Below are positions 4,766-60,060 of a DNA stretch of 64,000 nucleotides, piece by piece. Position numbers and translations under genes: made by a program. Source of the stretch: Siphonodentalium dalli (lineage: Eukaryota; Mollusca; Scaphopoda; Gadilida; Siphonodentaliidae); the NCBI GenBank assembly GCA_032622095.1, contig CP136064.1, positions 173,548,310 through 173,612,309 on the forward strand, read 5' to 3'. The first letter of the stretch is position 1. Each line of letters opens with the position of its first letter. The notes beneath the pieces were generated by a model, which did no database searches, was not told where the DNA came from, and saw only the letters and a program-made list of their open reading frames with translations.

Positions 4766-4830
4766 ACGAGAGGCCGATCACGATCGGCAGATGTTAACCC
4801 ATCCCTTGGTGACGGTAAATTACTATGATC
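4766..4830 (+). repeat. Family A head fragment
   Basis: It begins ACGAGAGGCCGATCACGATC, contains a palindrome GCCGATC/GATCGGC at 4773-4788, and continues GATGTTAACCCATC. It is the same start as at 12489 and 25694. The rest of the intron to about 5780 shows no recognisable element. Confidence 0.6.
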
Positions 4831-5783
4831 GGAATCATAAATGAGAGTTTTGGTGTTGAATTTTAGAGTATACTGTTATGTACTATGTACTACTGAATTG
4901 AAACTGACAAAAATTTTGCCAATCAATTACTCATCTCTGCATATATTGTTACTGCTGCCTGTATTTCGGGTTTCCATCTTTCGGTCATGGACAGACCAGT
5001 CCAAAACCGGCCATACATGGCAGTGGTGCGTATATACAGTGGTGCGTATCCATCATTTACAAAGTCACCGAACTGACACAGAACCCACAGGCACCCCTTG
5101 CAGCAGCATTAATATTAATATAATATTATATCGGTCAGTATTCATAGACCCGGTGAATGAGACGAGTGTCAGACTTGTTATGTTAAATGGATCTGCCAGG
5201 CGTCTCATCCACCTGGTCAGTGAAAAGATCATTTCTTTTAAAATAAACATATTCACAATCACAAGATTACAAGATTAGTAAATGTAGCACTTATGATGAT
5301 AAATTATTTTATCCACATTGACGATGGCTTTATCAATGTAAAATATCAATATATTAACATTGATGTCATTACCATTATTTTTTAGTATCAAAATGGAGAA
5401 TTTTGTGGTAACTATATTGTCTGCCTCGTGGCCGGTAGCATATCAGGGGACCACAATGGAATTAAGCCTTCGAGTGCTTTTTGTGCCATCCCCGATATCT
5501 AGCCGTACATGTATTCTACGATTTTTTATTTTTTTTTCTTCTAAATTTCAGCCATCATACCATTGGTATTCACTTTGACTTCTTTACAGCCTCATTTTTG
5601 TTTCAAAATTTGCGATTTCTTATATAGCCTAACAACTGAAATTATGTTAAAAACTCCTTTTTATTTGCTTGTAATTTACTATATTTGTAACCTGTTCAAA
5701 CAATATACGTGTATGTCTTTATATAAAAAATAAATCAAATCAATAGACAAATGTACACAACACAAATTATTGGAATTAATGGG

Positions 5784-5860
5784 TCACTCGCATTTATATA
5801 AGAGAATGCACTGGTACAGGATCTGTAATGCTGCACCACCACAGCCTTGGGTTAAATGTG
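5784..5860 (+). repeat. M1 hairpin family, half copy
   Basis: TATATAAGAGAATGCACTGG followed by ACAGGATCTGTAATGCTGCA is the right half of the hairpin repeat seen complete at 35220, 35576, 46440 and 51074. The inverted left half is missing. Confidence 0.55.
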
Positions 5861-6574
5861 AAAGGTGACCTGGACATGGAATACTTGGGTTAAGAGAGTC
5901 CAATTTAAGTTTACAATGATAATGTATCAATTTCTACCAACAATATAGATCAAGATAAGCCACCTCACTGCTGACCCATTAATATCAATTATATAGCAGA
6001 GCTGTCAACAAATCACAGGAATTGTTTATGTTGAAAGCTGACATCTCTATTAAACCAATAACATTTATAATGACCTCAGACCATCTGTAGAGTGATATCT
6101 TCAGCTGTGCAAGGCAGCACAGATTTCCAAGTCTACTGTTAATATCATGTGATGTGTATTGTTGAATCTTTATTTTAAATTAGATACCATAGCTTTCTTT
6201 ATCAGATTATCTGCACATTGGCATAATAGACATCAGAAAATAATATAGGCTTATCAATAGCTAATTAGTCCAAAGGCATGGGATGGAATTGGTGAATTGG
6301 ATTTAATGTCGCTGCAAACAAATTTACCAGTACATAACACAAGATTTTGGACCGATTTAAAAAAATTTGGTGTGGTGACTTGGGGTACCCTTGGCAGAGT
6401 TATAATGGTGTTAGTTTTTCAAATATTGTTAACTTTAAAAAAAAAGTTTTTAATTATTTAACAAATTTTATTTAATTGTTTTTTATTTTTTGGGGGGGGG
6501 GGGGGGGGGGTTAAATTGAGCAATGAATTCAATCTAAATTTTTTTTTTTTTTTTTTTTTTACAAGAGTGGATAT

Positions 6575-6821
6575 TTTTTTCGAAAAAGGGCCATAACTCA
6601 GTTAAAATAGTCGGATCAAACCCATATTCGAACTCGATCTGTCTTTTGTGCTGAGAAATTCATATACAAAATTTGGTTCCGATCAGATAGAAAATATTTT
6701 AATTATCGCACCATGCGTAAAGTGTCAACAGACAGACGGATGGACGGATGGACTAACGACGAGCGGTCAATCCGGACAACGACACTATGTTTACCATACT
6801 ATGGTATGGGTAAACATAAAA
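6575..6821 (+). mobile_element. Family A 3' part with terminal hairpin
   Basis: It contains one core module (GGCCATAACTCAGTTAAAAT, then GAACTCGATCTG), a run of GACAGACGGATGGACGGATGG type at 6730-6752, and a tail whose hairpin is TTTACCATA/TATGGTATGGGTAAA followed by CATAAAA. The tail is complementary to the family A head (ATGTTTAACCCAT). Non-coding; read as a Helentron/pearl-like non-autonomous element. Confidence 0.6.
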
Positions 6822-7059
6822 GCTGCCGCAAGCTGAAGTTGCTTGTCATGATATATAATATTTTTATTTTGGCAAGATCAAATATATGTTTCAGAGTTGT
6901 AAATTTGACACCAGAAGACAATTTCTTCTAAACTCAATGTTTTGTCAACATGATCAATTAGTACAGTTTCAAGACTGCTAAAATAGAAATATTATAATTT
7001 TATCCGATTTATCACCACTAAATTACCATTTCTTCAGTTTCGTGGTGAAACATATTTGA

Positions 7060-7135
7060 TATGAGTAAAGGAACCCATCCTCCAAAGCTCAAAGCTAAAA
7101 TATTTGGATTTTTAAAATCTATTTGTTTTTAGTTG
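7060..7135 (+). repeat. Fragment of the TTAA MITE family
   Basis: The words GGAACCCATCCTCCAAAGCT and AAAATCTATTTGTTTTTA match the interior of 51843-52280 in order and spacing. No ends are preserved. Confidence 0.5.
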
Positions 7136-7257
7136 CCATGATGTTGCATGCTGATATGACAAAATTCCTACAACTCTCGATGATACTCGATCCCTCAATG
7201 CTCACTTCCACCTTAACCTTCCCATAACTGGAGCTTCCTGCAATTTTGCAAATACCC

Positions 7258-7523
7258 TTTGCCAATGCATCTATGCCAGGCTTCCTATGGGAGAATGCAC
7301 TGGCATTGATGGTCATGATAAATATTGTTGTGAAAGTTCAAATATCAAATATGAATGTAATCGGTTGGTGTTTGTTCAAGTTTTCATGCTAACAGTCATA
7401 AAATTGCTAAAAAGGAGACAAACTAAGGGTCGTAACTCAGGTAAAGATGATCGGACAAACCCGGTATTTGAAATCAATCAAAATATGAACGGAATCAGTT
7501 TTTACCAAATTTAACCTTCTAAG
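7258..7523 (+). repeat. Diverged M1 hairpin plus core-module fragment
   Basis: GCCAATGCATCTATGCCAGG and TATGGGAGAATGCACTGGCA are a damaged M1 hairpin. The rest resembles 9715-10100 (ATTGTTGTGAAAG, AAATTGCTAAAAAGGAGACA, GGGTCGTAACTCAGGTAAA), the family H core. The hAT-like element at 7524 interrupts it. Confidence 0.5.
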
Positions 7524-9625
7524 TAGGGTTGCCACGAAGTCCTATGAGTTTTCATAATCGACTAATCGACCGTTATAATCAACGGTTAGTCGATTAATCG
7601 TTTATGTATATGGCCTATATTCAGGGTTTCCGCTAGGGGTTGGGGGAATGTGGCCGTATTTGGGAAGCACATACCCGGTGCCCTGTCGGGAGAAATTTTT
7701 GATGTTTATCACTGAAATGTATCCATTTCCTTGCACTTGAGACAACAATCAGGAACATTGAAGCTTCGTATAGAAACCAAATTAAAACAGATAGTCTTTC
7801 TTTGATCTCAAGTTAATGAACTAAGAGCATGTTAGCACCACCACATACAATTGATACAACGACTTTTATATCAGTAGCAATATTAAAAGCCGACATCAAA
7901 GAAATTACTGGGGTTGGAAAGACACATTGTCACACTCAGTGTTACGTCAGAGCTCACGTCACGTGCTTTGCACACGTTCTGCATGCCTGATTTCTTTACA
8001 GTACCGATCAGAACAAGTTGGTGTAAACTCAAAAGCCATTCCTCAGACGGAGATGACCACATGCTGGATTCGTATAATGGATAATTTTGCATTCATTGTA
8101 TAGGAAATAAATACACTGATAATACCTATTAATATTTTTATTTTTTTTAGTTTTAATTAAACATTTCTTTGATACAGACCTTATTTTGAGTTACTAGTAA
8201 AAGGTCCGCACTGTTCATCGCAGGGACTGCAAAAACTCAACCTGCATTCAGTATTCAGCCCCCACCCCCCCACCCCCCTCCGTAATGACTTACCGATGTA
8301 TATTGCGCATATTGAGGGGAAATAGTGGGTCAGAAAGTTGGGACTTATATAGACAGAAATCTACGGTAAATTAAAATGCGAGAGGCTGATTACTAATTTA
8401 CTACTAAACATTCAGGATGATGCAGACAACTGTGCACGTGGTCTGCGGTATTGATAATGTCTTATTCAGGCACCAAGTGTAGGATTCCTTGCAATCTGTT
8501 AATCATCAGTGTCAGTGATCGCTCGTCCTGAGTAAAAAGAGGGCTGAGTTGGTCTGTTGCTATTTTGTGACCAATATTATGTCAAGGTTGGGAAAGGGGA
8601 ATGAGGCCGCTGGACGGCCGGCCTGCCGTAGTAGTGGAAACCCTGCTATATTACACCCAGGTAAACAAGTGATAAATGCAAAATTCAGTCAGTCAGCAGG
8701 CTTGTCATTCTGAGGCCCCAGCCCGTCATCTGCCACCTAAATTTAAATTTGCGCAGCCGGTAAACGCCCTCTCCGTCGTTATTCCCGCGGACTAGAATTT
8801 GTTCTAATATCTGTCCAGTCAATCAATGTTCCACGTGAACATGCGTCGCGGTGCCAATTGAAAGCGTGTGAAATTGTCGCATACTTATTGAAAACAGACT
8901 ATAGTTAGTTTTGCAGGGAATCCCATAGTGTATCGATTCATTATTACGTCACCTAACATATATAGAGCACTTTTATTTCGCGGGGTTCGGTGTGTGTGCA
9001 CGCTGCTTGTTAATTACAAATTAATAGTTTATATAGGTTACCACATTGGAGAATGTAATGTATGTAGTACTAATAAGTGATGACACAAACTTGTTACTGA
9101 TTAACTGTCTAGTAACATTCCATGTCCCGCGAACTTTGTGAATAATGGTGACCATTTTACAGTATGGAAGTTGAAAAATGAACATAGATGCAGTCCGATG
9201 CACGTCGTCCATTTTGGCTATAATGATCGTTAATTACCAATCCATAGAAACATAAGTTCACAGTTGAACATAATTTATAAACAATGACAATGCGTAACAT
9301 GACATCAAAGGAAGCCGCTGGTTCGCCACGACTGTGAGAACATGTCGCACACCGAATTCTTTGAAGATTACTGCCAAACGTTGGCTGCGACATCAAACAC
9401 AAATGAAGCCTCATCAGAAGTGGCGAGAAAACAGGCTGTCGGGTGATAAATTGTGCTACATACACTGTTAATTGTTTCTTCCATGCATGGCATTTGTGCA
9501 TAGTACTGCTTACATTCACAAACATACCCACCCCCCTTGGGCGATTGGTCGACGAAAGTAAATAACCGTCGACTACCGCATCTGTCGAAGGTTAGTCGAT
9601 TAATCGAATAATCGTGGCAAGCCTA
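7524..9625 (+). mobile_element. hAT-type non-autonomous element, host of a nested element
   Basis: The ends are inverted copies of TAGGGTTGCCACGA (left) and TCGTGGCAAGCCTA (right). The subterminal parts carry TAGTCGATTAATCG repeats in opposite orientation. The flanking 8-mers CTTCTAAG (7516-7523) and CTTCTATG (9626-9633) match at 7 of 8 positions. An 8-bp target duplication and a TAGGG end are typical of hAT elements. No intact transposase is visible; a 124-codon minus-strand frame at 9157-9531 might be decayed coding sequence but has no motif I recognise. Confidence 0.75.
7622..8645 (+). mobile_element. CAGGGTTTCC-ended TIR element nested in 7524-9625
   Basis: It starts CAGGGTTTCCGCTAGGGGTT and ends GTAGTGGAAACCCTG. 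CTATATT flanks it on both sides (7615-7621 and 8646-8652), a perfect 7-bp match or 7 of 8 if read as 8. The element at 18815-19645 begins and ends the same way and also has a perfect 7-bp duplication. The interior is GC-richer than the surroundings and non-coding. Confidence 0.75.
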
Positions 9626-9639
9626 CTTCTATGGGAGAC

Positions 9640-10405
9640 TCACATATATAAGAGAATGCATTGGCACAGGATCCTTAATGCTGCACCAGCGCAGCTCCAA
9701 TCATGAAAGGGTTAATGTGGTATGGAGAACTTCAGAAGGGTTATTCCAGCATTGATAGTCAAGATAAATATTGTTGTGAAAGGTTAATGAATGTAATCAG
9801 TTGATGTTTGTTCAAGTTATTGAGTGCATAGCGGTCATAAAATTGTTAAAAAGGAGACAAATTAAGGGCCGTAACTCAGGTAAAATAGATCATTCAACAA
9901 ATCTGGTTCTTGAAGTTGTTCAAGATATTGTTGTGAAAGGTCCTTATACCAAATATGAATTTAAATTGGTTGCGTTTGTTCAAGTTATTGCGCAAACAGA
10001 CATAAAAATTTCCTAAAATTGCTAAAACAATAGACAAACTGAGGGCCGTAACTCTGGTAAAAACAAAATAGGCTAAACCTGAATTTCGAACTCGATCAAG
10101 ATATTGTTGTGAAAAATAGATATACCAAACATGAACGAAATTGTTGACCTTTGTTCAAGTTATCATGATAATGGACAAAAAATTGCTATAAATAGAAACA
10201 AGTGCCATAATTCTTGTCAGACAGTTGGGGAGCACCAAATTTTGTGTGTGCACATGTGGCATGTGACAATAAACTGACATTTTTTTAAATCCATCAATAA
10301 ACGGCTATGTTACATAGGTTTGGGGCCACCACCCAGACGCATGCTGGCCAACTGTCCCTCGTTGAATCCTAAGTCGAGTTTATTGAAAAAACTTGACCAA
10401 AAATA
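9640..10405 (+). mobile_element. M1 half copy followed by family H repeat
   Basis: It opens with CATATATAAGAGAATGCATT and the M1 right flank. It continues with family H core modules (GGCCGTAACTCAGGTAAAAT, TTGTTCAAGTTATTG, CATAAAAATTTCC) and ends in a hairpin tail AAGTCGAGTTT/AAACTTGAC followed by AAAAATAA (10368-10405). The same tail type closes 40342-41977. Confidence 0.55.
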
Positions 10406-10972
10406 ACAAGAGGTACGCTGTCGCGTGGCATTTGCCCGGGACCGTAGCAATTTGGATTAAGCATGGACGAAACTGCGGATATCCGAGGAGGTCTATATGA
10501 CCATTCCAAAAGAAGTTCGTACAGAAATGTTGACTAAAAACCACAAAACAAGCGATCCGGAAACCCCAAAAAAAAGCGAAAATTTGACGAAAATTCAAAT
10601 ATTCTAAGTTGAAAAAAGGGCCATAACTCAGGCAAAAATCATCAGATCATACCCAAATTCGCACTTGACATGTATTTTCATATAACTGATCCACAAAAAA
10701 ATGGGATTTGCAATCGTACCACCAAAGCTCACGCTATCTGGAAACCCCAAAAAACAAGAGAAAATTTTAATTTTCTAAGTAAAAAAGGGCCATAACTCTG
10801 GTGAAAATGGGTGGACGAAACCCGCGCTATGCTTGTAGCTGTTCCCCCATGCTGCTCTATCACCGTACCAAATATCAGCTAAATCTGCCCAGCGGTGGCT
10901 GAACAATAATGCAAAACGTTTGTACGGACGTCGACTATATACCCGCCAACTTCAAGTCGGGGGCATAATAAT
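10406..10972 (+). mobile_element. Family G Helentron/pearl-like element
   Basis: The head is ACAAGAGGTACGCTGTCGCG with a following TTTGCCCGGG; the tail is ACCCGCCAACTTCAAGTCGG then GGGCATAATAA. TGCCC in the head pairs with GGGCA in the tail. Two core modules lie between (GGCCATAACTCAGGCAAAAA; GGCCATAACTCTGGTGAAAA). It abuts the end of a family H copy exactly at the AAAAATA tail. Non-coding. Confidence 0.6.
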
Positions 10973-10990
10973 AGCTTTCATCACATTTAC

Positions 10991-11906
10991 TAGGGATGCG
11001 GACTGGACTGGACCGCCAGTGAAGAGGCAGTCCAGTCCAGTTCAGTCAAGCTCACAGTGGTACGGTATTCTTGCCTGGACCGGTCCAATCATTATAAAAT
11101 ACCTTAAATGGAGGGAAGTGTGTTAATTTTTACTTTGGTATATGCATTTGTGTTACAGAAAGAGTCAAATTACAGCCAGGCGAGCTTCTTTTAAACTCTG
11201 GGCATAATATATAATACATTGTATGTACATTGTGGAATGTGTAGTGTATTTTCTTATCTCCATCAATGTATAAAAGTTAGAGAATGAATAGATGTGCTTA
11301 AAACTTGTGACAGTGACTAAGTGTAGAGTCTGTAGTTCACGTTTCCGCTACTATCCCCCACATGCACTCATTATGTTTTGTTCTTAGCATTGCCAACTGA
11401 CATATTCCAGATAGATTGGTCGATTTCCGACATGAAGGTATGCTTCGGTATTGGATGTAGTTACTTGAAGTTAGATATTGCCAACTATAGGCTAATATAT
11501 CGCGATTCAAGACCTACATGTACATTGAAATGTAAATGAGGGTTAGTTAACATGGTATTGATGGTAATTCTCTTGTCTGATATCAATCATTCTCATTGGC
11601 AATATGCATACCCAATGTGTCAGATATATAAGCCAAAAAGTTGAGAATTGTTCGTTTAATGAAGGATCGTTATATTTGTCATGGATTAAAGCTCTAAATT
11701 TAGAGACGATGGCTGTTTTAGAAAGTGTCCCGCAAAACATTTTTACACCAATAGGGCCAGTACTTAGGCTAGGCATACATCTATGTATTCAAGTTCGCGA
11801 ACCGGTACAGTACCGGACCGATCCAATGACGGTGGTCCGGTCCAGTCCACGGCCTGGCCCTGGACCGCGGATGGACCAGGTTTTTGAAGTACAGTCCGCA
11901 TCCCTA
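10991..11906 (+). mobile_element. hAT-type non-autonomous element (TAGGGATGCGGACTG ends)
   Basis: The left end TAGGGATGCGGACTG is inverted at the right as CAGTCCGCATCCCTA. The flanking 8-mers ACATTTAC (10983-10990) and ATATTTAC (11907-11914) match at 7 of 8. The subterminal parts are rich in GGACTGGACCGG-like words in both orientations (TCCGGTCCAGTCCACG near the right). About 916 bp, no transposase frame. It sits only 82 bp from the donor of exon 11988-12371. Confidence 0.8.
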
Positions 11907-11987
11907 ATATTTACTACCATTTCAAACACCCGAAAAATAAAACAGGTCACTACACCTTTTCCCGATACAATAAAAATTAAAACATAC

Positions 11988-12371
11988 TTTGCTTTCCAGA
12001 CTGCCTATCAACCACAGCCTGCATCTGTTCTTCCCAGCTCAGTTTTGACATATCATCACCAGTGATGTCAATGCCTCGAGCCTTAAGTTTTTCTTCAATT
12101 TTCTTCATCTCATCAATATTAAGAGACATAAGTGGCGTGACGTCAGGATCATGGACCTCTCCCTCCTCATCCAGTGGTTTAGCTTCAGCCCATGCAGCCT
12201 CGAAGCTCTTTGGCACAGGCCTTTGGTATGGCGCTTTCCGTTTCCCCGAAGCTCTCTTTTCTTCGCCTTCATTCTTATCCTGTGGCACTTCTTCTGTGAA
12301 ATCCAGACCGGGAATCACAGGCAATGCCTCTGCTTCCTCCAATTTCCTTTTCTCTTCTTTCTTTTTCTCCT
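11988..12371 (-). CDS. WDR33: WDR33 exon, conserved linker with IPGLDF motif
   Basis: The 384-bp exon continues the charged stretch (EEKKKEEKRKLEE), then has LPVIPGLDFTEEVPQDKN, KRKAPYQRPVPKSFEAAW, and an acidic region ending MSKLSWEEQMQAVVDRQSGKQ. Human has MTIPGLDWGMEEV and KKVPYAKPIPAQFQQAW at the same place, so both short motifs are conserved, probably as protein docking segments (inference). The acceptor follows a long T tract (TTTTTTTTCAG). I placed the donor at CAAA|GTATGT because that restores frame into the last exon through an Asn codon (A+AT). Confidence 0.92.
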
Positions 12372-12408
12372 CTGAAAAAAAATAAGAAGAAAACTGTAGC
12401 AGACTGAA

Positions 12409-13245
12409 ACAAGAGCATGCCAGGCGTGGCTTAATACGCCCATTTGCAAAGTAAATAATTGTGATCTTTCAATTAATACTATCAAAGAACGAGAGGCCGA
12501 TCACGATCGGCAGATGTTTAACGCATACCTTGGCGATAGCGATTAGCTATAACTGATAATTGGTCAAAGATATGATCACCGTAATACATATATCAGTAAT
12601 TAAACTTAAAATCAAAAGCTCATATAATTTGTCTTAAGAAGGGGTTAAAGTATTTGGGGTGAGGGCGAGTCGTTTTAAATCTCATAACTCTGTCCCTATC
12701 ACTGTGAGATCCAATGGTTTAGCCATTAATCAATTTGACAGATAAGGATAAACAATTATCCAGCCAGCAGGTTGTTTATCTTTACCTTCATACAAACACC
12801 CCCTAGAGCTCTGTAACATATGTCATCACTCAATTAATAACATATTTCGCTTGGAATGACATCTATTAAAGGTACACTCATATAGTCTGGATATTGGATG
12901 TTCACATGGCAATTTATTGATATTATTATATTACATGCAACTATTGCAATAAAATCTTCATATTTTCAAAACAGGACAATCTCACATACCAAATCAGATA
13001 AAAAAAATTGTGAGTTATGGCAGCATGCGTGAATTATAAGTAAAAAAAGGGGCCACAACTCGAGAAAAAAAAAACTCGGATCAGACCCATATTCAAACTC
13101 GAACTGTATTTTGGGCTGAGAAACCTATATACAAAATTTGGTTCCAATCAAATAGAAAATGTTAGAGTTATCACATTATGCCTAAATTGTCTACGGACGG
13201 ACAGACAGTATGTGTACCATACTATGGTATAGGTACACATAAAAA
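12409..13245 (+). mobile_element. Family C head fragment followed by family A element
   Basis: A family C head lies at 12409-12440 (ACAAGAGCATGCCAGGCGTG, then AATACGCCCATTTG). At 12489 a family A element begins (ACGAGAGGCCGATCACGATC). It carries a 470-bp unique body shared with 25694-26100 plus 27566-27650, one core module (CACAACTCGAG..GAACTCGAACTG), GGACGGACAGACAG, and the tail TGTACCATACTATGGTATAG ending ACATAAAAA at 13245. Both ends are present, so this is the best complete family A copy, about 757 bp. Confidence 0.65.
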
Positions 13246-13830
13246 GTTTTATCTCATGCAGAGTACAAGAAAAATATATCAAACCTGGTGTGCCCCTTTA
13301 ATATTTCTATTCACATTTGTAATCAATTGAAATCAATGTCAAAAAAGCTTTCCATTAATATATAAATAAAACAAACTAGACATACAGTTCTAAAAGTGTT
13401 ATGATTAATTATTTTGTTCTCATAGACTGATACAGAGCTCTCAAGTTTAAAAAAATTTGAAAACCAAAGTTGTCTTCCTGTGCAACCAACAAAATTCCAA
13501 CAAATCTACTAAACACAATCACATTATTAACCTCCAATAGTAATGCTATTAAACAATAAAACCAGATTATGCCTTTAACTTAAAGATGAAATTTAAATAA
13601 CCATGCATATAAAATATAATAGCATAAACATTCCATCTATGATATCTAATCATATGGCCAAAGTATCTGGTAGCAGTTAATTAAACTCAATGCAAGAGAG
13701 TCAGTGTAACTGGATACTATCGCTGTTGCTCTATGTGATAAGACAACTTCATGGCTTTGTAAACCTGATTTATGAGATTCTACCTGGAAAATGCAAACTG
13801 TATCTTTGATATATTTTAGAGATGAATAAA
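13246..13830. other. Intron sequence, nothing recognised
   Basis: AT-rich intron between family A copies. I saw no conserved coding frame, terminal inverted repeats or tandem array. Confidence 0.5.
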
Positions 13831-14005
13831 ATAATCAAAGGGCCATAACTCCATTAAAAAAATATCGGATCAAACCCATATTCGAACTCGATCTGTATTT
13901 AGAGTTGTGAAACTCACATACAAAATTTGGTTCCTATCAGTTGAAAAATGGTTGATTTATAGAAGCATGCATGAATTCTATGTCAAAGAGCCATAACTCC
14001 ATTAA

Positions 14006-16239: not shown

Positions 16240-16616
16240 AGATCAGATCAAACCCATATTCGAACTCGATATGTATTTTGGGCTGAGAAACTCGCATACC
16301 AGATTTGGTGCAGGTCAGATAAATATTTTTTGAGTTATGGCAGCATGCATGAATTCTAAGTAGAAAAAGGGCCATAACTCCGTAAAAAAAACTCCGATCA
16401 AACCCATATTCGAACTCGATCTGTATTTGGTGCTGTAAAATTCATATACAAAATTTGGTTCCGATCAGATAGAAAATATTTCAGTTATCGCACCATGCGT
16501 AAAGTGTCTACAGACAGACAGACAGACAGACGGACGGACGGACTAACGACGAGTGGTCAATCCGGACAACGACACTATGTTTACCATACTATGGTATGGG
16601 TAAACATAAAAATGGA

Positions 16617-17065: not shown

Positions 17066-17339
17066 TACATAATGTAATATGGTCCGTATTAACAAATTTA
17101 TAACAAAATAAGAAGTTTAGATGCATCACATATTTTTTTTAATCAGGCAGATTGTTTGTTGCATGTGACTTTAATAATATCTCCTTGATCAGTCTATATT
17201 AACAGTGTGGAATGTTACTTGCCATAAAACACAAATGCTCACCAGTTGCCTATGACATATTAAAGTCTTTCGACATAATTTCCCCAAAAGCATTGCCAAT
17301 AACAATGGAAATCTAGACTTTATTCACTACCCTGTAACT

Positions 17340-37225: not shown

Positions 37226-37229
37226 AAAT

Positions 37230-47856: not shown

Positions 47857-47864
47857 ACTATAGC

Positions 47865-49639: not shown

Positions 49640-50690
49640 ACATCTGTGGCAATTTTGGCCCAAAATTCAAATAAATGTGTGTTTTTGTCCAGATTTTGAT
49701 TACTGGGATTTATTATTTGATTGAGGATGAAAATCTTATTTTGCAAATTGAAGTTGCACTGATCAATAATAATAAATCGTTTATTATCATTATGACTCCA
49801 CTATGAGTCTCGGTGTATAAAAAACCGACATGCAATTAAAATTAGGACATGTTTGCTTTTATACATCGAGCCCAATGGTATGTTAATTTTTAATTATACG
49901 TTGGTGTTTTGTAGGACAATCGTTAAGTTTTAAAGTGATGTGAAACACTCCGGTAGGGTGATAAAATAGAAATTGAGAATAATCTTGTTCGAAATCATTT
50001 TTGTCAGTTTATCGCAGATAGTCGAGTCCCGAATGAAGATGTAAATATTTACAATTGAGCATAGTTCAGACGATGTTTTCTATGGATTGGTAAGAACAAT
50101 TTCTTTGAAATTTTCTGGCATGTTAGTAGAATGCTCCATTCCCCAGGTTGGCATAGAGCCAGAGTACTAACATGTCTTTAAGAGCAGCGTAATAATAGGT
50201 CAAGTCTAAAGTATTGTTAATCCTAAAGTACAGAAAGTAATAAATGTCAGTCAGCTGTTTACATTTAAAGCTTTTTGAATACACGCAGAATTTCTCAACA
50301 CTACCTCCACCCCACCCCCCCCCCCCCCCCCCCCCCCACCACCACCTTAGGTTGTGTGGTTTGACTAGTGCAATTTTAATTCCTTGGTATATCTTTTCAT
50401 TACGATGTTTGATAATTTGTATGATGTTTTCTATCAGAATTCGTTTCTTGTGTATTTCTATGTGTCATGCGCCTTTACGTGTGTTGTTTGTCAGTTCACA
50501 ATTTGATTTGCAAAAGGGGTGATTTTGGCCCAAATTCAATCAAATATGTGTTTTTGTCCATATTTTGATTATTCCATGATTATTTGATTGATGACAAAAA
50601 TCATTATTTTCTGAATTAAAGTTGCACTAACCTATAATAATAAATTGTTTATTATCATTATGACTCCACTGTGGGGCTCTGTGTATAATG
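49640..50690 (+). repeat. Two direct copies of a 175-bp sequence flanking about 700 bp
   Basis: 49640-49822 (ATTTTGGCCCAAAATTCAAA to GACTCCACTATGAGTCTCGG) is repeated at 50522-50692 (ATTTTGGCCCAAATTCAATC to GACTCCACTGTGGGGCTCTG) with moderate divergence. The spacing is about 880 bp. A short inverted pair TCGGTGTATAAAA/TTTTATACATCGA lies at 49815-49871. No LTR-type ends were recognised. A C tract lies at 50318-50336 within the spacer. Confidence 0.65.
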
Positions 50691-50750
50691 TCTGTTGGCT
50701 TAAGTTGTACAAATTAAATTCATCAAAGTAGCAATAATACGTGGACAAAG

Positions 50751-50812
50751 TAAACGTGTGAGTTATATCGCTTGACAGGACTAAACGTGTGAGTTATATC
50801 GCTTGACAGGAC
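50751..50812 (+). repeat. Exact 31-bp tandem duplication
   Basis: TAAACGTGTGAGTTATATCG followed by CTTGACAGGAC occurs twice in a row with no difference. Confidence 0.85.
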
Positions 50813-50884
50813 AAGTATTCATTCCATAAATCAAGGAACAGAGTAAATTTGCATGGCCAATAATAAATGTAAGCATAAAATAAT

Positions 50885-51531
50885 TAACCCTTTCTTTACT
50901 AAATGGACTCTCCCATCCAGTTATAAAAGTATACAGTGGAATGATAAATAATTATTCATCTGGGAGCAGACGACATATAATAAAAGTGAAAAATCATTTG
51001 CATTCATTGCTGGGAGATGTTCAGAAAATAAGTTCAACTTTGTTAACCCTTTACCCAACAGAACGGCCCTGTGCCAATGCATTCTCTTATATATGGGAGT
51101 CGTCCATAGGTCGCCTCGCATATATAAGAGAATGCATTGGCTTAACACATATTAAAAATGATCAAATTGTCAAAGAATGTAGAAAATATTATAAGAAAAA
51201 ATGGTAAAAAGTGTTAAAAGGATTTTTTTAGGCCAATTTTGATGCATTCTCTTATATATGCGAGGCGACCTATGGTCAACTCGCATATATAAGAGAATGC
51301 ATTGGCACAGGTCATAACTCAGTGTAACCATCACAATGTGGTCAATGAACCGGTTCCAATGATATCCATATTTGTATGGTGTTATTGAGACAGACCAAAG
51401 ATATTTTAGGCTGTTGAAGCTTTATTTGGGCGCTTTTGGCCGGTTTGTTGGGTAAAGGGTTAAACTTATGATCTGAAAATTTCCTGAGGGAAGTACTCAT
51501 CAATCGAGTATTTAGTATAGAAAGGGTTAAA
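50885..51531. mobile_element. M2 foldback MITE hosting a second MITE
   Basis: The outer ends TTAACCCTTTCTTTACTAAA and, inverted, TTTAGTATAGAAAGGGTTAA match the ends of 34699-34917. Inside, GTTCAGAAAATAAGTTCAAC and ACTTATGATCTGAAAATTTC are the opposed arms, broken by the element at 51043-51463. Confidence 0.7.
51043..51463. mobile_element. TTAACCC-ended MITE carrying two M1 hairpins
   Basis: TTAACCCTTTACCCAACA (51043-51060) is exactly inverted at 51446-51463. The terminal TTAA may be the target duplication. Two M1 hairpins lie within (arms near 51074 and 51118-51140; 51241-51264 and 51280-51304). This links the M1 hairpins to a TTAACCCTTT-ended carrier and explains why other M1 copies end with AAAGGGTTAA. 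Confidence 0.75.
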
Positions 51532-51842
51532 ACTCATGCCCAATGTAGACCGTTTTACACAGGGACCAGGTGCAATTTGAGAGATGTCACTTCTCCCTAT
51601 TCATTTAATAACAACCTGCTCGTCACTGTGCGCGATGAGTAAACCAGAGGCAATTATTCTTCGCAAAGTTCTTTCCTTAATATCATATCGGGGATGTTCG
51701 ATATGCTTTGCCTATTATCAAATTACAGTGAAGAGGATTGTTTCGAACAGTTAACACCTGAAGATCAGCCCTCTGTATTTGATCAGTGTGATAAGGCAAT
51801 ACAAAAAAAACCTCTTACAATGTGCAAACAAAGTTACTCCTT

Positions 51843-52280
51843 TTAAAGATGTATAATCCGAATTAACGCTCGCAAATTACTATTTCCTTGGCTTCGGGGG
51901 TAAAAAGTATTTGATTCGAGTCGAGGAACCCACCCATCAAAGCTCAGAGTGATCAGGTATATCGATGTTTGAAATCTATTACTTTTCACAACAGATAACA
52001 GCCGACGAGAAGACCTTCTCAGACCAAATTGCAGAAGATGGACAACTCTAAAATCAAGTGGCTTTTTTGTGTCAGATATATGACAAACCGGCAATATTTT
52101 GTTGAACAAAATGTTGATCAATAACAGGTTTTGGACAATTTTATACTATAGTTGACTGTCGTTAGCATTATTTTTGGGTAATTACTCGATTCTGATAACT
52201 GAAGCAGCATTTCAAATTTGTTTATTGTTGTTGGAATCTTGATGATATGGGGACCATCGAATCGGATTTAGTACCTTTAA
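51843..52280 (+). mobile_element. TTAA-flanked MITE, copy 2
   Basis: This is the same family as 2002-2445, about 438 bp, flanked by TTAA at 51843-51846 and 52277-52280. The right end (AATCGGATTTAGTACCT) is well kept; the left end is more diverged. Shared internal words include GAGGAACCCA, CAAAGCTCAGAG and GTGTCAGATAT. It has no coding capacity. Confidence 0.75.
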
Positions 52281-52429
52281 TCACACTAATATGCATTCTT
52301 TGTTTGCTTGAACATAACCCTATCAGAAATGCAGAGAGGAGTCACTTCTCCCTGGCTAAACAGACAGATGGGTGCAACATTGCAGGGAAGACAGAAATGT
52401 CCCATGTCTACCTCCATCTGGGCTGGTCT

Positions 52430-52560
52430 GTTATCAGGGCTCGAAATGTTCACCTGTCCACTGTGACCGATAGTTCAGTTTGTGGGTAACAAGTAAATTC
52501 TTTGGCTACCTGTCACATGACAGGTGACCTTAGTGACAGGTAATCTTACTAGTATTTTGC
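52430..52560 (+). repeat. Single CAGGGCTCGAAAT end with CCTGTCA palindrome
   Basis: CAGGGCTCGAAATGTTCACC resembles a hAT-type left terminus but no inverted partner was found. CCTGTCACATGACAGG at about 52511-52526 is a near-perfect palindrome. Probably a truncated element. Confidence 0.4.
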
Positions 52561-52599
52561 AGGCTTCATTTTGGGAACGTAGCATAATATCTACATAAA

Positions 52600-52985
52600 G
52601 AAAGTGCCAATGGTACTGTAGCTCAACTTCGAGAGGGGACATTTCATATGTTAGTCAATGGAGTGCATTGGAAATGCGGAAAGTTGAAATGTCTAAGTAT
52701 AACTAGATGTCATCATGAAGATATATATGGCCGCTGGCAGCCATGTTTTTTGCCGCATGACCCAGCATGACCTCAAAATAATTTTTCGTTCGCATCTACA
52801 TGCCAATGCACATGGCAAATTTCATGATGATCAGATGAACGGTACCACTTGTAGCCATGCTAATAGATTGAAATTTGAAATCCAAGATGGCTACTGGCAG
52901 TCATGTTTTTTTTGCCAAATGACCCCAAAATGACTTCTCATTTACATGTCAAAGTCGTGACAAATTTCATAATGATAAATGAGAA
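52600..52985 (+). mobile_element. Family D copy, 3'-truncated
   Basis: The head AAAGTGCCAATGGTACTGTA, GCTCAACTTCGAG is followed by two modules (GCCGCTGGCAGCCATGTTTT; AAGATGGCTACTGGCAGTCA). The hairpin tail is missing. Confidence 0.6.
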
Positions 52986-52989
52986 GGAA

Positions 52990-53955
52990 TTGGTGGGATT
53001 ATTAAATGTCCAGTTTTGTCAGATTAATCAGGATCAATTGAGAATTTTTAAATTTTAGAATTCACAATGTACATTATATAGAATGGAATCATCCTCAAAG
53101 ACAAATTATGATTCCTTAAATGAGGTATGAAATGTCTCATTATTTACTGCAAAAACAAGCAAGAAGTAAACGTTTTTGGACACAAAAATGGAATAAATAT
53201 TCATCGGCCATGCCCAGCCACTACTTTCACCTGCTGAATAATAGTGAAGGGGTGCATTTTTAGCTGAAATTATTAATAGTGAAGCAATTAAATAAAGGCA
53301 TACACCAAAGTCAGAAAATACTGCAATGGAGCTCCAAATCTGTACTTTTGATTATGAAGGGGTTACAATAATCATGAAGACTTGTATTTTTAAGTCAAAG
53401 TTAAATGATAGCATTGTCACTATTATTTGGCAGGTAAGAGACTATGAGTAGAAGAGGGAGCAACTACTCTCAATTTGACCACCAATGACTCCAAGCATTG
53501 GTCATTGATATAGGATGTATACAAATTGACCCACTTAATTTTAGAAGCAACATCGAAATATGGAAAGTAAGTTGCAAGTTATCTCCAATAAACCCTGATA
53601 AATCAACTTATTTTATATGACAACCCTTTTGTGCATAGCAGCATGTCAGTCAACACGATTACCTGTTGTTTTGGTCATGTATGGGATTAGCTCTCTCAAA
53701 CATTGGGCTGGCTTTGTGAAATTGAACTCCAAACCCAGTCAAGTTTATTTTCAAACCCAGTCAGGTATATTTTCTATTTTTTCCCCAAGAAATGTGTCTC
53801 TTTGTGGTGTTAATCTTTAGAATGCCCATTAATTCGAGTGGGCTAATCTCATACTATGATGTTGTTTTGATCACGCGAACAAGATACACCCAATATTCAA
53901 AATTTAATTGCTTTTTGTCAAATTTAACTTAATATTATTTACTTTTTATAAATAT
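52990..53955. other. Intron sequence, nothing recognised
   Basis: AT-rich. No TIR, array or conserved frame seen. Confidence 0.5.
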
Positions 53956-53958
53956 GAC

Positions 53959-54336
53959 TCAATGCGACTGTGTGTATTTTGTGTTCTCAGGTGACATATA
54001 TTGGGAGTAGAGAGATATGCAGTGGGGATATACCAATTGGTACTTATTTCCCAGGTTCCCATTTGAGTAGGTCACACAGGGGTTTGGAAAAGCTTTACAC
54101 ACAATAGAAAGTTCAGAAGTGCAAAAGAATTCCTCAATCATAAACAGGCAGTCGTACTCGCAATAATCCCCATGGGCACCCCGATTTATATGGCATGCCT
54201 GAACTCCATCAATTGATGGTAGTGACCATATGATACCTTGGTCATAGAAAGATTTCTTTCCCACACAAAATGTAGGGGTTACATTCATTGCACTGCGCTG
54301 TGTCATGCACGAATGATCACAATACATCGCAAACAA
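53959..54336 (-). CDS. Unexplained cysteine-rich open frame (hypothetical)
   Basis: A 125-codon minus-strand frame in an AT-rich intron, same strand as WDR33. It has eleven cysteines, including MYCDHSCMTQ, GVQACHINRGAHGDYCEYDC, EEFFCTSELSIVCK and NPCVTYSNGN. The PCVTYSNGN segment faintly recalls the TYSN core of Kazal domains, but the cysteine spacing does not fit and I do not assign it. No signal peptide is evident at the first Met and I see no convincing promoter. It could be an exon of a nested gene, a decayed gene fragment, or chance. Confidence 0.2.
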   Translation of the reverse strand: MFAMYCDHSCMTQRSAMNVTPTFCVGKKSFYDQGIIWSLPSIDGVQACHINRGAHGDYCEYDCLFMIEEFFCTSELSIVCKAFPNPCVTYSNGNLGNKYQLVYPHCISLYSQYMSPENTKYTQSH

Positions 54337-54639
54337 TGAAAGAATGTCTTTTATTCATGTGGACTAAACACATGTTGACGATAGAGGCAAAGCTAGCTTC
54401 AGGTGAAAATCAATAAACGTAGGGTCCCGAAAAGACCGTAATTATAGGTGGGAACTTTGTTTTAAAAAGAATAAGCGTACAGTATGCTTATTTGGGTCAT
54501 GAGAGTAACTTGGAAGATGGAAGGATGAAACAACAACATTATTTAAAGTTGAACCCTTTGTCATATGCATAAACAGGGTCAAAGACCGCAGTCTTTTTAT
54601 AACGATTCCATCGTGAATTTCTGGCAGCAACATGTTCTA

Positions 54640-55960
54640 ATAAACTATTTTTATCATGGTTGGCTTGGTGTTGATGCTCCCTTTTGCCTCAAAATAAATA
54701 ATCATGATGGGTCTTAATAATCGTCATTACCTGCCAATTATACAAGAAATTGATAATCGTGAAGTCACAATTATTAGGCCGATGTGAGTACTGCATGAAG
54801 GTCAAATCTGCCTCGATTAACAACTGCACTCCTTCAAATTGCCAGACCGTCCTATACGCAAGAGAATTATTTGTGAGATATCCTTGTGTTTCTAAGCAGG
54901 TAAGTTTAACTGGCCCATAATTTGTTCCAAGACTCTACAATTAATTTGACGAATACAAAGCGAATGCAACACCAGTTGAATGAAGAATTAGCTGTGCAAG
55001 ATGCAATCTCCCTTGATATTTGTAACAATGAATAACAGTGCAAAGTGTATTTTCATTCATTTTAAGATATTCAACAACGGATTTGTATTTATTCAACTGT
55101 CAACAGGGTTGGTGATTTATTTGATTTTTTCGATTTTTTTCCTAATTGTTATGAAAATATGCAATTGTGCAATGTCTTTGATAAATGAAGGTTCTAAAAG
55201 GTGTTGCTTATTATATCCAAGGCTGGATTAATCAAAATTCTATTATTATTTTTTGTATAACTACATGTATCAAGCACAAATATCATGGCAGAACAGATAT
55301 AGCGACCATGTACTTTAATTATGCATACACTTAGGTCCATGTGAGTTCCAATGTTGTGATATTTGGATAAGTAGACCTGTGCTTAAAGATTTACTAAAAC
55401 ATTTAGTAAATTTTAGCCGAGAACTGAATATATTATCAATCACCTTTTCTCCTCGGTGACGAGGACATACATGTAATCACACCATACATATATCAAGTAT
55501 GGATAACTAGAGTAGTTTAGATGGCACAGTATATGGTATAATTACTTTGTTGGCATTTACATGTATGGCAATCAGAAAAGGAAAGGAAATTTAATAGTGT
55601 ATAAATGAGGAGTGCTGAATCTGATTGTAGTTACAAATAAGCGGAACAGGTCGTTGCTGGAGCAGTAATCCCAGAACCATGCAGTATGCCTGTTTCTATA
55701 GGGTTGACAATTACTTCACAATTTCATATCTATTATCCAATTTTGTATATTGTTTAATCATAATCATGTTATAGTTTACAAAAAACCTTGTTAGATATTG
55801 CAAATTCTTGAGATATGCAATCATTTCAATTTTTTTTATTTAAATCGATGATTACTTGATTTAAATCAGCCAACCCCGACTGTCAACCTGATCAAACTAG
55901 GTTGGTACGGTAAATAATCTTTTTGGTGGATATAATTCCCATTTTCAAGGGCAGAGGAAG
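54640..55960. other. Intron sequence, nothing recognised
   Basis: AT-rich, with short T and A tracts (for example 55120-55145 and 55825-55850). No element ends or conserved coding frame seen. Confidence 0.5.
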
Positions 55961-56830
55961 CATTTTCATATGGGCATAATCATGAAATCCTTGTGGATGG
56001 GCAAGCTACTTTATTTTGACCTACACCAAATCCTTGAGTACCAATATATAACTATTTGTAATTTTGTAGTAATATATCTGTATTTATTTTATATTAACAC
56101 CAACAATATTGACAGGGAAAGTACCGTTATTTGTATCTGGACTAATGCTCAAACCCTATGAGCACAGGATATAGACGTTTTTATTTAAGCATCAGACCAA
56201 CCCATATTAGCAAGGGAAAGATATTTGTATTCAATGAAACATTTTAACGTTACCAGCATTAACAGAGGATATACTGTTATTTCTGTTCTGAAATGGACTA
56301 AAATATTGTGGACACAGGATGTAGCTGAATCTAGATTTATTCAAACATCCACATAATCATTATGAGCAAGGGAAGAATATTTGTGTTCCTTGATACATTA
56401 ATCCCAGTTACTAATGGCAGGAGAGGTATGTTTATTTGCACTTTGACACAATCTCAAACCTTGTGGGCAAATGACATACCAAAAATTTGCACTTATTCAA
56501 ACAACAATTGGATCTCATTGTGAAGTCAAGTACTATTTGTATTCATTGAAACATTAACCCAATCCCAATTTAAACGGAAAATACCTCTACAAGTATTTGG
56601 ACATAAAACCAGACCTTTTGGGTGGAGGATGTACTTAATTTGTAGCAAACATAAGCCAATCATTACGGGTATTTGTATCTAGAAATGAACCCAAAACTTG
56701 TGGGCTAAGGATGTAGCTTAATTTATATTTATTCAAACTTCCTTGTGGGCAAGGTAAGGATATGTGTCTTTAACCCATAGGCAAAGGAGGTACCTTTATT
56801 TGTATTTGACAGATGGTTATATTTTTACCG
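55960..56830 (+). repeat. Old tandem array of about 155-bp period
   Basis: Variants of CTCAAACCTTGTGGGCAAAG and AGGATGTAGCTTAATTT recur near 56025, 56150, 56303, 56455, 56612 and 56690. They alternate with TTATTCAAACATCC and GGGAAAGATATTTGTATTCA phrases. Units are heavily diverged, so the array is old. The last interval is about half a unit. It is unrelated to the GGCCATAACTC modules. Confidence 0.55.
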
Positions 56831-57133
56831 ATTCAGACTTCAACCAATAATACCAATTCGGTACATATATCTTGTTGTCATTCAAATATTAGCTTTTGAC
56901 ATGGGCAGGGGGGAACATTTTACATTTTGTTTGGATTGAAACAAAATCATGGTAAGGTGGGTAGGTATTTGAAATCTTTGCTTATTCATACATCAAACAT
57001 TTTAATTTGGTCAGGTAGACCATATGAATGCAACACTTCTCAGAGAAAGAATTGTTTATTATTTATTCAATCATCAAACAATTCACTCTGGAAGGGGGTG
57101 TGGGGTGTTTTAGGTCAGTTTTCCCCAGGTGGC

Positions 57134-57303
57134 CATGTAGTATGTTTATGAGTGGATGGGAATTGCAACAGGGTGACCTAAAACCTATCGCTATAAGCAA
57201 ATTATTCCCTCATTCAACCATGTAGCATGTTTATGAGTGGATAGGAATTGCAACAGGGTGACTTAAAACCTATCACAATAAGAAAATTATTCCCTCATCC
57301 AAT
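57134..57303 (+). repeat. 85-bp tandem duplication
   Basis: CATGTAGTATGTTTATGAGT at 57134 and CATGTAGCATGTTTATGAGT at 57219 begin two units that both contain GGAATTGCAACAGGGTGAC, TAAAACCTATC and AAATTATTCCCTCAT. They differ at several positions. Confidence 0.8.
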
Positions 57304-57309
57304 CCCAGA

Positions 57310-58211
57310 TTCACTCCATATATACCCCTATGATTGTTAATAAGGCGAGGTGGGGAACAATTTTTCTCTTGGGGCTTTGAGGAACATGTTTATTCGTCTG
57401 TGCAGCCATGCAGTATTTAATGGGATAGGCCTCGGAGAAGAGAATCATGCAGGCATGTTGCTATAAAATCGCTTTATTTCAACTCGGAGTGAGGTAGAAG
57501 TTTACTTTATTTACCTCACTTTATCTCAACAAACTGACATACTTCAAATAGTACCAATGTCACCTCAATATATAGAAAATTGCTCATCAAAAATAAAGTT
57601 TCAAATGTAAACATATACTCTTAAAATTCATATCACAGATATACAAATCCATACATGAAGGAAGTTCATATTAAGAAATAATACAGGTAGCTTCAACGAC
57701 ATCAGTCGAGAATGTGAAAATATATTTGGAATCAGTATTAAACATTTAAGCTTAATGAACAATCTGCTTTTCTTTATTTTCTTATTGTCACATTTTTGCA
57801 ATTTGTGAACTATCACTCACTAACTGTCAAGAATCAAACTTGGAATGTGACTCTGCTTTTAGCAGTGGCAGTGTTGTGTCAGTTGCATAAAGATGAAGAC
57901 GAACGGTACACTGTAAGGTGTACAAGTCCTTTATAATTTATTATATGCCAAATGCATCTTTAGATTCAAATTTTTTTCAAAGTGCCTTCTCATGAATATC
58001 CTTCATGTATGAATTTTAGATTCCCAGCTTTACCCATTTATTATTCCAATCTCCTGATCACTCACTGAATTAGCATATATCAAAATTCTTATTATTGCTG
58101 CTAAATTCAGTGAGGAAAGAAGGCATAAAAACATAACATATAGTATGTAACATTACGGTTGCATAACAGACAGCTAGACACCGGTTGTCATTGTGACTCT
58201 GTGAGGCCCAC
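57310..58211. other. Intron sequence, nothing recognised
   Basis: AT-rich sequence up to the donor of exon 58212-58363. The minus-strand frame that enters from the exon ends near 58070. Confidence 0.5.
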
Positions 58212-58363
58212 CTTATCCCGCGTATTGCTTCTTTATGACCTTGGTACATCTTGACATTATTCATGTTCGTCTGCCAGTACTTGATGAAGCCTGCGTGATC
58301 TGCTGTCACCATCCAGAGATCGTTGTGACTCCATTGCATGCTCCTCACTGACGTGTCATGAGC
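58212..58363 (-). CDS. WDR33: WDR33 exon, WD40 blade 2 and start of blade 3
   Basis: This exon encodes [19 protein letters not shown], then [19 protein letters not shown] and GHKEAIRGI, matching human AHDSPVRAMTWSHNDMWML and HKEAIREAS. It carries a full GH/WD-type blade (AH start, KYW end) and the GH of the next one. The acceptor is TTTCAG. The donor reads AAG|GTGGGC, less usual than GTAAGT, but the split codon AG+T gives Ser, as in human EAS. The frame continuing past this donor for about 45 codons is intron read-through. Confidence 0.95.
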
Positions 58364-58811
58364 CTGAAAGGTTTAGACAAAGCATTAGTATTGATCATCT
58401 CAGTCGGTTAAAAAGCTAAAATTATGTCATATTTTGCCTCGGCTCATCCGAAAGCCAATGCTAATTAACCTGGCTGAAATCTGACCAACCTCACAAATGC
58501 AGGTTAAGATGGTGATTAGCTATTGATAAATGATTCTTACTGAAGAGTAGTTAATTGTTTTCCATTGACATCGGAATAATATATAGAATTTAAAACATTC
58601 TCAATAAATTTCTAAAATGAACAATTATGCTGGATTCTCAATACCTCTCTTTTAAAATTAGATAAGTATTTCAATGAACAGTATTTAGTTGGTAATTCCA
58701 AACAATAATTTGAATGTAATTTTATGGAAAAAGTCATTAACCAGAATCAAACTACAAGTACAGATGCCCAAATAATAAGGAGAGCTGAGTGACAGAAATT
58801 GAATTAATTAC

Positions 58812-58907
58812 CTGCAGGATAGTTTCGAAGTTGAAGGTCAGACCATTCCAGAGTGTGAATTCCCCGCTTGATGCACCAGTCACCAATCGACGTCCTTCAG
58901 GGGTCCA
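58812..58907 (-). CDS. WDR33: WDR33 exon, WD40 blade 1
   Basis: The 32-codon exon reads [20 protein letters not shown] and ends FNFETILQ, almost identical to human residues 127-158. It forms the first blade strands. The FNFETILQ end carries the equivalents of human Phe153 and Ile156. In published CPSF structures, as I recall them, these lie against the U3-A6 base pair of the AAUAAA signal, so the visible part of the RNA-binding site is intact. The acceptor is TTATCAG and the donor GTAATT, a weaker site than the neighbouring GTAAGT donors. Both flanking introns are phase 0. Confidence 0.95.
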
Positions 58908-59085
58908 CTGATAACAGAATATACAGTTTTTTTAGCTGTTAAGACAAGAATTAGGAGGGAGTGGCCTGAAGCTGATCTCATCTTATGTAGAACATAATGT
59001 TGTCTGCTATCAGGAAATGGTTACACAACTTACATGGGGCAACTCCTTTTTGGATAGTCACAAAATTTAATTTGTTTAGATCTAA

Positions 59086-60060
59086 ACAAGAGCATCGTTA
59101 GGGCTTGGCAAAATACGCCCGTGGTTTGTCCAAAATGCAGACATGAAGGACAATCTGATGTGATGGTGCAAAGACAGAGCTCAAAATGAAATTTCATTCC
59201 ATTCAGTTCAGACTTATTAAAGGCACGTGCGGCCTTAATTGTCGAAAATATTCATATTTGTTCCTTGTTTCCTGTGTAATATATATCCCAGTTATGCCCC
59301 TGTTAAAGGCACGTGCGGCCTTAATTGTCGAAAATATTCATATTTGTTCCAAACACCGTAAACAGAAAAACATTAAAACGCATACAGTTCCGTTCATATA
59401 TACCATGACCATCGCGTAAACAGCATGTTATCATAAAGACCTACTATATTTTACCTAAGCAAGAGCCTGATTGTGTTACAGAAGACAGCACAATGCTACT
59501 GGCTAATCACACACAAATGGCATAAACGCTCTTTATTAGTTCCATATCAGGTATTCACCAACAAACGACGCTCTTTATGTTTACCATCATAATGTAAACA
59601 AACACCAGAAAAGTAACTTTTTATGCTTTTGTTTACATAACAATGGTCAAACATATGACCATAACATACTGTTTATGCGATATATCTTATTTGTATACAG
59701 ACAAAGTTTATCTAAAATTTGATGTTCTTTCTGTTTGTGGCGGTTTTTAACGGGTGGAGATATTTTCACAGGATACCCACCGCCAAGGCCAACCGTGTCT
59801 TTAAAGTTATTATCCAGAAATAAAATTGAGTGCAAATTCCAACAAAAATGGCTGTAACTCTGGTGAAAGTAGGCGTGCAGAATCCAAATTCGAACATGAC
59901 CTGTATCTTGTGCTAGTAAACCCACATAAACCCAAATTTAATTGCATTCGGTTCAGACTTACTAATGATATCATTCGGAAACAAACAAAAAAGTGAACGG
60001 ATGGGTGGACAGGCGACCAATAAGATATACGTCCTTTTTTTTTAAATGGGCGTATAAAAA
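59086..60060 (+). mobile_element. Family C element, complete, with inner MITE
   Basis: The head ACAAGAGCATCGTTAGGGCT, TGGCAAAATACGCCC and the tail TTTTTTAAATGGGCGTATAA carry the complementary pair ATACGCCC (59113-59120) and GGGCGTAT (60048-60055), as in 43182-44098. The body is interrupted: GTAAACAGCATGTTAT (59416 region) and ATAACATACTGTTTATGCG (59661 region) are inverted, and core modules (GGCTGTAACTCTGGTGAAAG) appear only after 59840. Confidence 0.75.
59217..59350 (+). repeat. Exact 48-bp direct repeat
   Basis: 59217-59264 and 59303-59350 are identical: TTAAAGGCACGTGCGGCCTT then AATTGTCGAAAATATTCATA, TTTGTTCC. The unit contains CACGTG and begins with TTAA.AGGC/GGCC.TTAA symmetry. The spacer is 38 bp. 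Confidence 0.85.

Follow-up and report, generated by a model that had tools for sequence, protein, structure and literature searches.

Families of non-autonomous Helentron-type elements with their own pairs of subterminal repeats in the genome of the scaphopod Siphonodentalium dalli

The elements named Cg_HINE in the oyster Crassostrea gigas consist of a 5' subterminal inverted repeat (subTIR), a complementary inverted repeat (IR), a GTCC-type microsatellite, a tandem-repeat body, and a 3' subTIR with a palindrome; they form several families, each with its own subTIR and IR, and insert into T-rich targets without target-site duplication (TSD) (PMC7492417). The same features are found in a 64,000-nucleotide stretch of Siphonodentalium dalli DNA (C4:173548310-173612309; contig CP136064.1 of GCA_032622095.1, a 2.23-Gb assembly of 9 contigs), called here the window. 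Its repeats fall into several families of non-autonomous Helentron-type rolling-circle elements (HINEs) that share this genome, with family-specific subTIRs at both ends. It is very probable that one Rep/helicase/endonuclease would recognise both, and that the two ends diverge together as families split.

Other described systems resemble them as well. The HINEs and Helentrons of mites and Drosophila, DINE-1 included, have subTIRs, a 5' IR (in DINE-1), a 3' stem-loop, a microsatellite and a TT target without TSD; their Helentrons encode an endonuclease-bearing Rep, and elements are placed in one family when they share an identical subTIR of 11 bp or more (PMC4067079). The FoHeli elements of Fusarium, which are of the Helitron2 type, fall into subgroups with their own 5' hairpin sequence, found inverted near the 3' end, and one group has a CTCCTGT-like 3' end; they differ from the elements described here in being autonomous and fungal (PMC5148889). 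The bivalve pearl elements CvA, CvE and CvG, unlike in sequence and of common structure (cited in PMC11136912), can be likened to them by description, not by sequence.

Anatomy and insertion of the elements

Read on the minus strand of the window, the 5' part of an element consists of a T-run, the subTIR (S), a loop, the IR (an inverted copy of S) and a GTCC microsatellite, after which the body begins. The 3' part has an inverted subTIR (S'), next to it a palindrome that is directly visible in the 3' modules, and finally CTCTTGT or a similar terminus, after which a T follows. A first-pass annotation, made from the letters of the window, had listed a head motif, hairpins, GGCCATAACTC modules, a GGAC/GACA run, a tail hairpin and an A-rich end; all are present, in an orientation reversed with respect to published HINEs, its tail being the 5' end and its head the 3' end. 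Its comparison with Helentron, DINE-1 and pearl elements was apt, as the subTIR, IR, microsatellite, 3' palindrome, T-run insertion and lack of TIR-type (terminal inverted repeat) duplication indicate. Its suggestion that co-variation of the ends was undescribed was mistaken: the oyster and the mite/Drosophila papers already describe families of this sort (PMC7492417, PMC4067079). The finding concerns real elements of a known kind.

The families were characterized in 67 distinct loci from contig C1:0.18-68 Mb, retrieved with a (GGAC)n run and AAAAA within 50 bases as the search key. Genome-wide the key matched 3,458 times, with more than one match at some places, and the subTIR played no part in the selection; the fetched sequence was extended for ten B loci and two further loci. 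The S families among the 67 loci are A (ATGTTTACC), B (AGCTCACC), C (ATACGCCC), E (ATACCCCC) and H (GTCCCCCG), a large family that the first-pass annotation lacked, with D, I and others as single cases. The microsatellite lies near the 5' end in families A, B and C of the window; the 67 loci, having been selected by it, are no test of this feature. Genome-wide, the 5' patterns of A, H and B have 5,732, 4,616 and 3,565 matches and the 3' patterns of A and H have 4,713 and 4,160, against 0 for the reversed-pattern control in each case.

All 17 of the 5' sequences chosen for folding form a hairpin, family I using only part of its subTIR. A bulge or mismatch lies within the stem in 15 of these 17; E3 and H2b fold without one, which rules out the bulge as a universal trait of the 5' hairpin.

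Insertion sites were studied in 44 complete elements. A T directly follows the 3' end in 37, and a direct repeat of at least 4 nt accompanies only 3, being absent in 41. The H1 element of locus L019 sits in a T-run of a C2 body, the empty form of which is found in L046, L042 and others; empty sites also correspond to the C2 element of L012 (in L087) and the H3 element of L020 (in L047), and an E2 element present in L071 is absent from L070. No TIR-type target duplication was found among the 44 elements or their empty sites. Their ends and targets differ from those of canonical Helitrons, which have 5'-TC, 3'-CTRR and A/T insertion.

Coupling of the two ends and its natural variants

The nearest 3' module belongs to the family of the 5' end in 45 of 48 loci, where shuffling gives a mean of 13.0 and reached the observed value in 0 of 100,000 trials. 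The 19 remaining loci of the 67 comprise 14 without a 3' module and 5 without a called 5' family, one of which has a 3' module. Labels were given by eye (L002 and L003 unclassified, L026 as I, L046 as A'), and the count is the same when these four loci are labelled H (shuffle mean 13.2). The set of 3' modules was picked after inspection of loci in which every code had been searched everywhere. Among the three mismatches, that of L029 is a nested E3 element, the locus's own B end lying further along; in L046 and L063 the own 3' end is not in reach. Where E loci have a 3' module, which is so in 15, it is always of the E type (3 further E loci have none), the 5' ends of E1, E2 and E3 each being paired with their own palindrome, and a B 3' end was found at 1.8-3.3 kb in 6 of 10 B loci. 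Random pairing and TIR-type duplications, the two outcomes named beforehand as speaking against the proposal, were thus not seen in the 48 loci and the 44 elements, respectively.

The sequences of the ends point the same way. In the complete elements, the longest exact match shared by the 5' end and the inverted 3' end averages 7.7 nt within an element and 4.2 nt with other families; it is 7 nt or longer in 28 of 44 own pairs versus 10 of 1,410 foreign pairs, and the own 3' partner is better than all foreign ones in 31 of the 44.

Bodies behave differently from ends in some families, so that the earlier proposal of interchangeable bodies finds support both ways. The bodies of C1 and C2 are similar to those of H2, H3 and H4 (median identities 76-81%), with no similarity to H1 or H2b at E 1e-10. 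Conversely, E1, E2 and E3 share an 8-bp end code, and similarity between their bodies was not detected at the same threshold. A match between B and E3 bodies in 5 of 30 pairs is attributed to the E3 element nested in L029. Related flanks with unrelated tandem repeats are likewise known from the oyster (PMC7492417).

Individual bases of S, IR and S' reveal which positions change together. Positions of ends were taken from the first 100 matches listed per pattern, and the counts that follow refer to these. At position 5 of A-type 5' ends, S and its IR partner are T/A in 88, G/C in 10, T/C in 2 and G/A in 0; the two arms of the hairpin have therefore changed together in the G/C variant, A'. The base that would match A' was found in 0 of the A-type 3' ends listed (by eye). 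An A-type 3' end lies within 3.5 kb downstream on the same strand of 5 of 10 A' and 42 of 88 A 5' ends, compared with 0/10 and 2/88 in the wrong direction. A' has thus multiplied with unmatched ends, which contradicts strict end-to-end matching.

Family H presents the complementary case. Its position 5 is mostly C or G, and 37 of 41 pairs have ends that agree there (27.6 on average in shuffles; 55 of the 100 H 3' ends entered the pairing, the other 45 giving no pair within 3 kb). The H3 lineage has G at the 5' end and the complementary base at the 3' end, while the IR of all 11 listed G copies carries A, like that of H1, leaving a hairpin mismatch in both H1 and H3. Between C and E, position 5 differs jointly in S, IR and S', and the listed C1 copies mostly keep S and S' unchanged, with a second common form of the IR (by eye). 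A rule by which hairpin-paired bases follow the IR and unpaired bases follow the far end is only a suggestion, as it rests on two or three events.

In the oyster, the subTIR, the IR, the stems and the microsatellite are reported to change in an element-specific manner, and subTIRs with a single mismatch occur (PMC7492417). The coupling counted against shuffles and the separation of hairpin-only (A') from end-to-end (H3) changes go beyond the accessible text of that account. Overall, the co-variation is real but, as A' demonstrates, not strict, and comes near to what published work takes to define a Helentron family.

A proposed common enzyme and competing explanations

A Rep/helicase/endonuclease encoded elsewhere in the genome would recognise the subTIR at both ends, nick at the 5' hairpin and stop at the 3' palindrome, the terminator role of the latter being proposed by analogy with Helraiser (PMC4778049); one strand would be mobilised and joined into a T-run. 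Because the same protein would recognise both subTIRs, these would stay recognisable and diverge together as families split. Matching between the ends of a family would be close, with single changes such as that of A' tolerated, and bodies would be cargo, swapped more freely than ends.

Several observations weigh against this proposal. The subTIR matches are often 7-9 bp, shorter than the 11-12 bp of Cg_HINE (compared by description, not by sequence; PMC7492417), and the longest exact match is below 7 in 16 of 44 elements. The 11-bp family rule of PMC4067079 is reached in only 6 of 44 (copies of C1 and H1; median 8), although that rule serves to name families and is not an anatomical criterion of the class. 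A', with 10 of 100 listed A-type 5' ends, keeps an unmatched 3' subTIR wherever a 3' end was found, yet is numerous. Finally, a Rep-bearing element with the ends of a HINE family was not found in the flanks searched, up to 10 kb, whereas an autonomous partner with the same ends is shown in mites and Drosophila (PMC4067079). The flanks covered extend 4 kb on the upstream side for 10 Rep matches, 6.5 kb and 4.3 kb on the downstream side for two, and 9-10 kb in either direction for two related copies. They held only nested-looking HINE ends, and similarity between copies continues through most of the fetched stretch. The E2 end that directly precedes the Rep gene of L071 belongs to a nested insertion.

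The ends might match by inheritance only, the founder of each family having had matching ends and nothing maintaining the match today. The multiplication of A' with one unmatched base, the IR arms unlike the subTIR in C and H1, and decayed ends at single loci would all agree with such a history. We nevertheless find it unlikely: E1, E2 and E3 keep one code at both ends with bodies of no detected similarity, C differs from E, and H1 from H3, by complementary changes at both ends, and the 5' and 3' subTIRs of C1 are constant in most listed copies, in which the IR varies.

It is likewise doubtful that the elements are non-autonomous Helitron2 elements, the partner of which would have no endonuclease. 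Published Helitron2 features include asymmetric inverted repeats, hairpins at both ends and insertion between TTTT and T or C, and the CTCCTGT terminus of FoHeli3-5 is close to the CTCTTGT found here (PMC5148889). Against this, the genome has long Rep open reading frames (ORFs) with a C-terminal endonuclease match, though none is tied to the HINEs. At least 151 matches to PF14214 were found in the genome, the lower-scoring of which include stop-free frames of 1,835-2,864 aa. The frame in L070 contains OTU, DUF6570 and partial Helitron_like_N domains, the fetched stretch ending within the last, and the continuing frame in L078 has an Exo_endo_phos match; judged by these domains, the frames are predicted to encode a Helentron-type enzyme. 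L070, L071, L073, L074 and L078 are related copies of such long frames, with nested HINE ends around them. Rep matches also occur in groups 8-26 kb apart (contig positions C2:141795020/141803591, C6:36914596-36934946 and C9:50089810-50141471), which may be rolling-circle tandem copies.

Less probable still is a strand-to-strand lock, in which the ends would pair as single strands instead of serving as two sites for one protein. The ends are indeed reverse complements, and H3 compensates at a base that is unpaired in its 5' hairpin; A', by contrast, regains its hairpin while its ends mismatch in all five cases, of the 10 listed 5' ends, in which a 3' end was found. As for cut-and-paste miniature inverted-repeat transposable elements with subterminal repeats, which are similarly short, non-coding and provided with inverted repeats, we give them hardly any credence, such an origin being ruled out by the lack of target duplication beyond T-runs (3/44, above) together with the empty sites, and the ends being asymmetric.

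The window, WDR33 and strand orientation

The features of the window are collected in Table 1. The complementary pairs proposed by the first-pass annotation for A (with one mismatch), B and C are present there. D is not shown to be a pair: the 52620 site has no element end, and neither the window nor 3.6 kb of L039 yielded a 3' partner; the sites taken as the E pair, 20571 and 34683, each form the end of a different element, the two lying 14 kb apart, although the E code itself is real in other loci; the G pair is weak, with 5 bp. Two tandem arrays lie at 22022-22567 (unit of about 174 bp) and 40476-41754 (unit of about 161 bp, with GGCCATAACTC modules).

Table 1. Rolling-circle element features and WDR33 exon matches in the window
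Feature	Positions	Strand	Details
HINE, family A	4766-6821	-	5' subTIR 6806-6817; 3' subTIR 4791-4802 (1 mismatch); 3' palindrome; CTCTCGT end at 4766
HINE 'G'	10406-10975	-	5' hairpin near 10970; 3' end CTCTTGT at 10406; subTIR match only 5 bp
WDR33 exon match	11977-12468	-	E 0.005
C-type 3' end	12409-12441	-	18% edits; 5' partner not identified
A'-like HINE	12489-13246	-	5' hairpin ATGTGTACC/GGTACACAT; A-type 3' end (ATGCGTTAAACAT); ends match poorly
HINE, family B	14006-16240	-	5' subTIR 16228-16234; 3' subTIR 14032-14038; nested within A-type sequence
A HINE, 5' part	16241-16612	-	split by B element
E2-like 3' end, degraded	18038-18080	-	15% edits, weak
E3-type 3' end	20545-20578	-	alone
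WDR33 exon match	23408-23494	-	E 4e-14
D-type 5' hairpin	25030-25089	-	3' partner not found
A-type 3' end	25694-25732	-	
B-type 3' end	27819-27852	-	
B-type 5' end	33800-33878	-	hairpin and microsatellite
A'-type 5' end	34180-34239	-	
E-type 5' end	34640-34693	-	hairpin degraded
WDR33 exon match	34935-35126	-	E 8e-29
HINE C2, complete	43182-44099	-	5' subTIR 44086-44093; 3' subTIR 43207-43214
WDR33 exon match	46785-47006	-	E 3e-16; generic WD40 chains outscore WDR33
WDR33 exon match	58755-58931	-	E 9e-20
HINE C, complete	59086-60060	-	5' subTIR 60048-60055; 3' subTIR 59113-59120

By its sequence matches, the window lies inside one predicted gene, WDR33, on the minus strand (2714..58931). The gene was found through a WD40 motif scan and PDB matches; a Pfam search with six window ORFs gave no match. 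Its five pieces, which span 58931 to 11977, keep the order of the protein, and a 653-aa open frame at 2714-4675 (-), coding for a repetitive Gly/Pro/Gln-rich tail, is probably the last WDR33 exon. All 11 identified HINE 5' ends (G included) and, with both strands scanned, all 11 3' modules are on the minus strand; two hairpin matches without a known end code, at 48063 (+) and 27948 (-), were left out. Since the gene is on the minus strand too, the window's HINEs are in sense orientation to WDR33. Runs of six or more outside the masked elements number 44 for A and 46 for T, the mask being hand-made and rough.

A shared strand of neighbouring HINEs is unexpected. Genome totals are balanced between the strands (A 2,823/2,909, H 2,369/2,247, B 1,839/1,726). 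Among the A, H and B 5' ends listed in contig C1:1-80 Mb, 47 pairs unite different families at a distance of 5-30 kb, and 43 of these share one strand (shuffle mean 23.4; 0 of 2,000 shuffles as high), pairs below 5 kb having been excluded from this main count because of nesting. The fraction is 27/40 at 30-60 kb, 39/61 at 60-120 kb and 63/143 at 120-250 kb. A control repeat with 3,445 copies shares its strand at 5-30 kb with HINEs in 19 of 42 pairs and with itself in 4 of 11 (listed copies).

We give even chances to the reading that HINEs of unrelated families insert or survive in one orientation over tens of kb, following the sense strand of genes or replication, so that local polarity and not target sequence would set orientation. 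Possible causes are insertion linked to transcription, selection acting in introns, and the direction of replication. What tells against this reading is that same-family pairs at 5-30 kb share the strand in only 25 of 35 listed cases (A 6/7, H 7/10, B 12/18), and that the pairs are not independent, one element entering several of them, and the shuffle preserves positions but not local clusters. As to gene sense outside the window, six 2.95-kb pieces of three myosin genes gave one clear element, a C1 HINE in sense orientation in a myosin gene on contig C3; the other HINE matches there are fragments without a clear strand. Insertions in both orientations are recorded in the oyster (PMC7492417). 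No report of orientation domains for Helitrons or HINEs was found, the accessible texts of PMC4067079, PMC7492417, PMC1431729 and PMC4683698 included, in a literature that covered few subscription journals. In bacteria, the orientation of IS200/IS605 elements follows replication (PMC5371812), a likeness that would extend to HINEs if their orientation is indeed set by local polarity.

These families offer a counted example of how rolling-circle families split, showing which base pairs vary jointly among the three subTIR copies and which fail to do so. A' and H3 are natural mutants able to separate recognition of a site by a protein from pairing of strands. Should the shared orientation hold genome-wide, it would inform on how a single-stranded intermediate finds its eukaryotic target, whether through the replication fork, through transcription or through selection in introns, each of which predicts a different orientation pattern.

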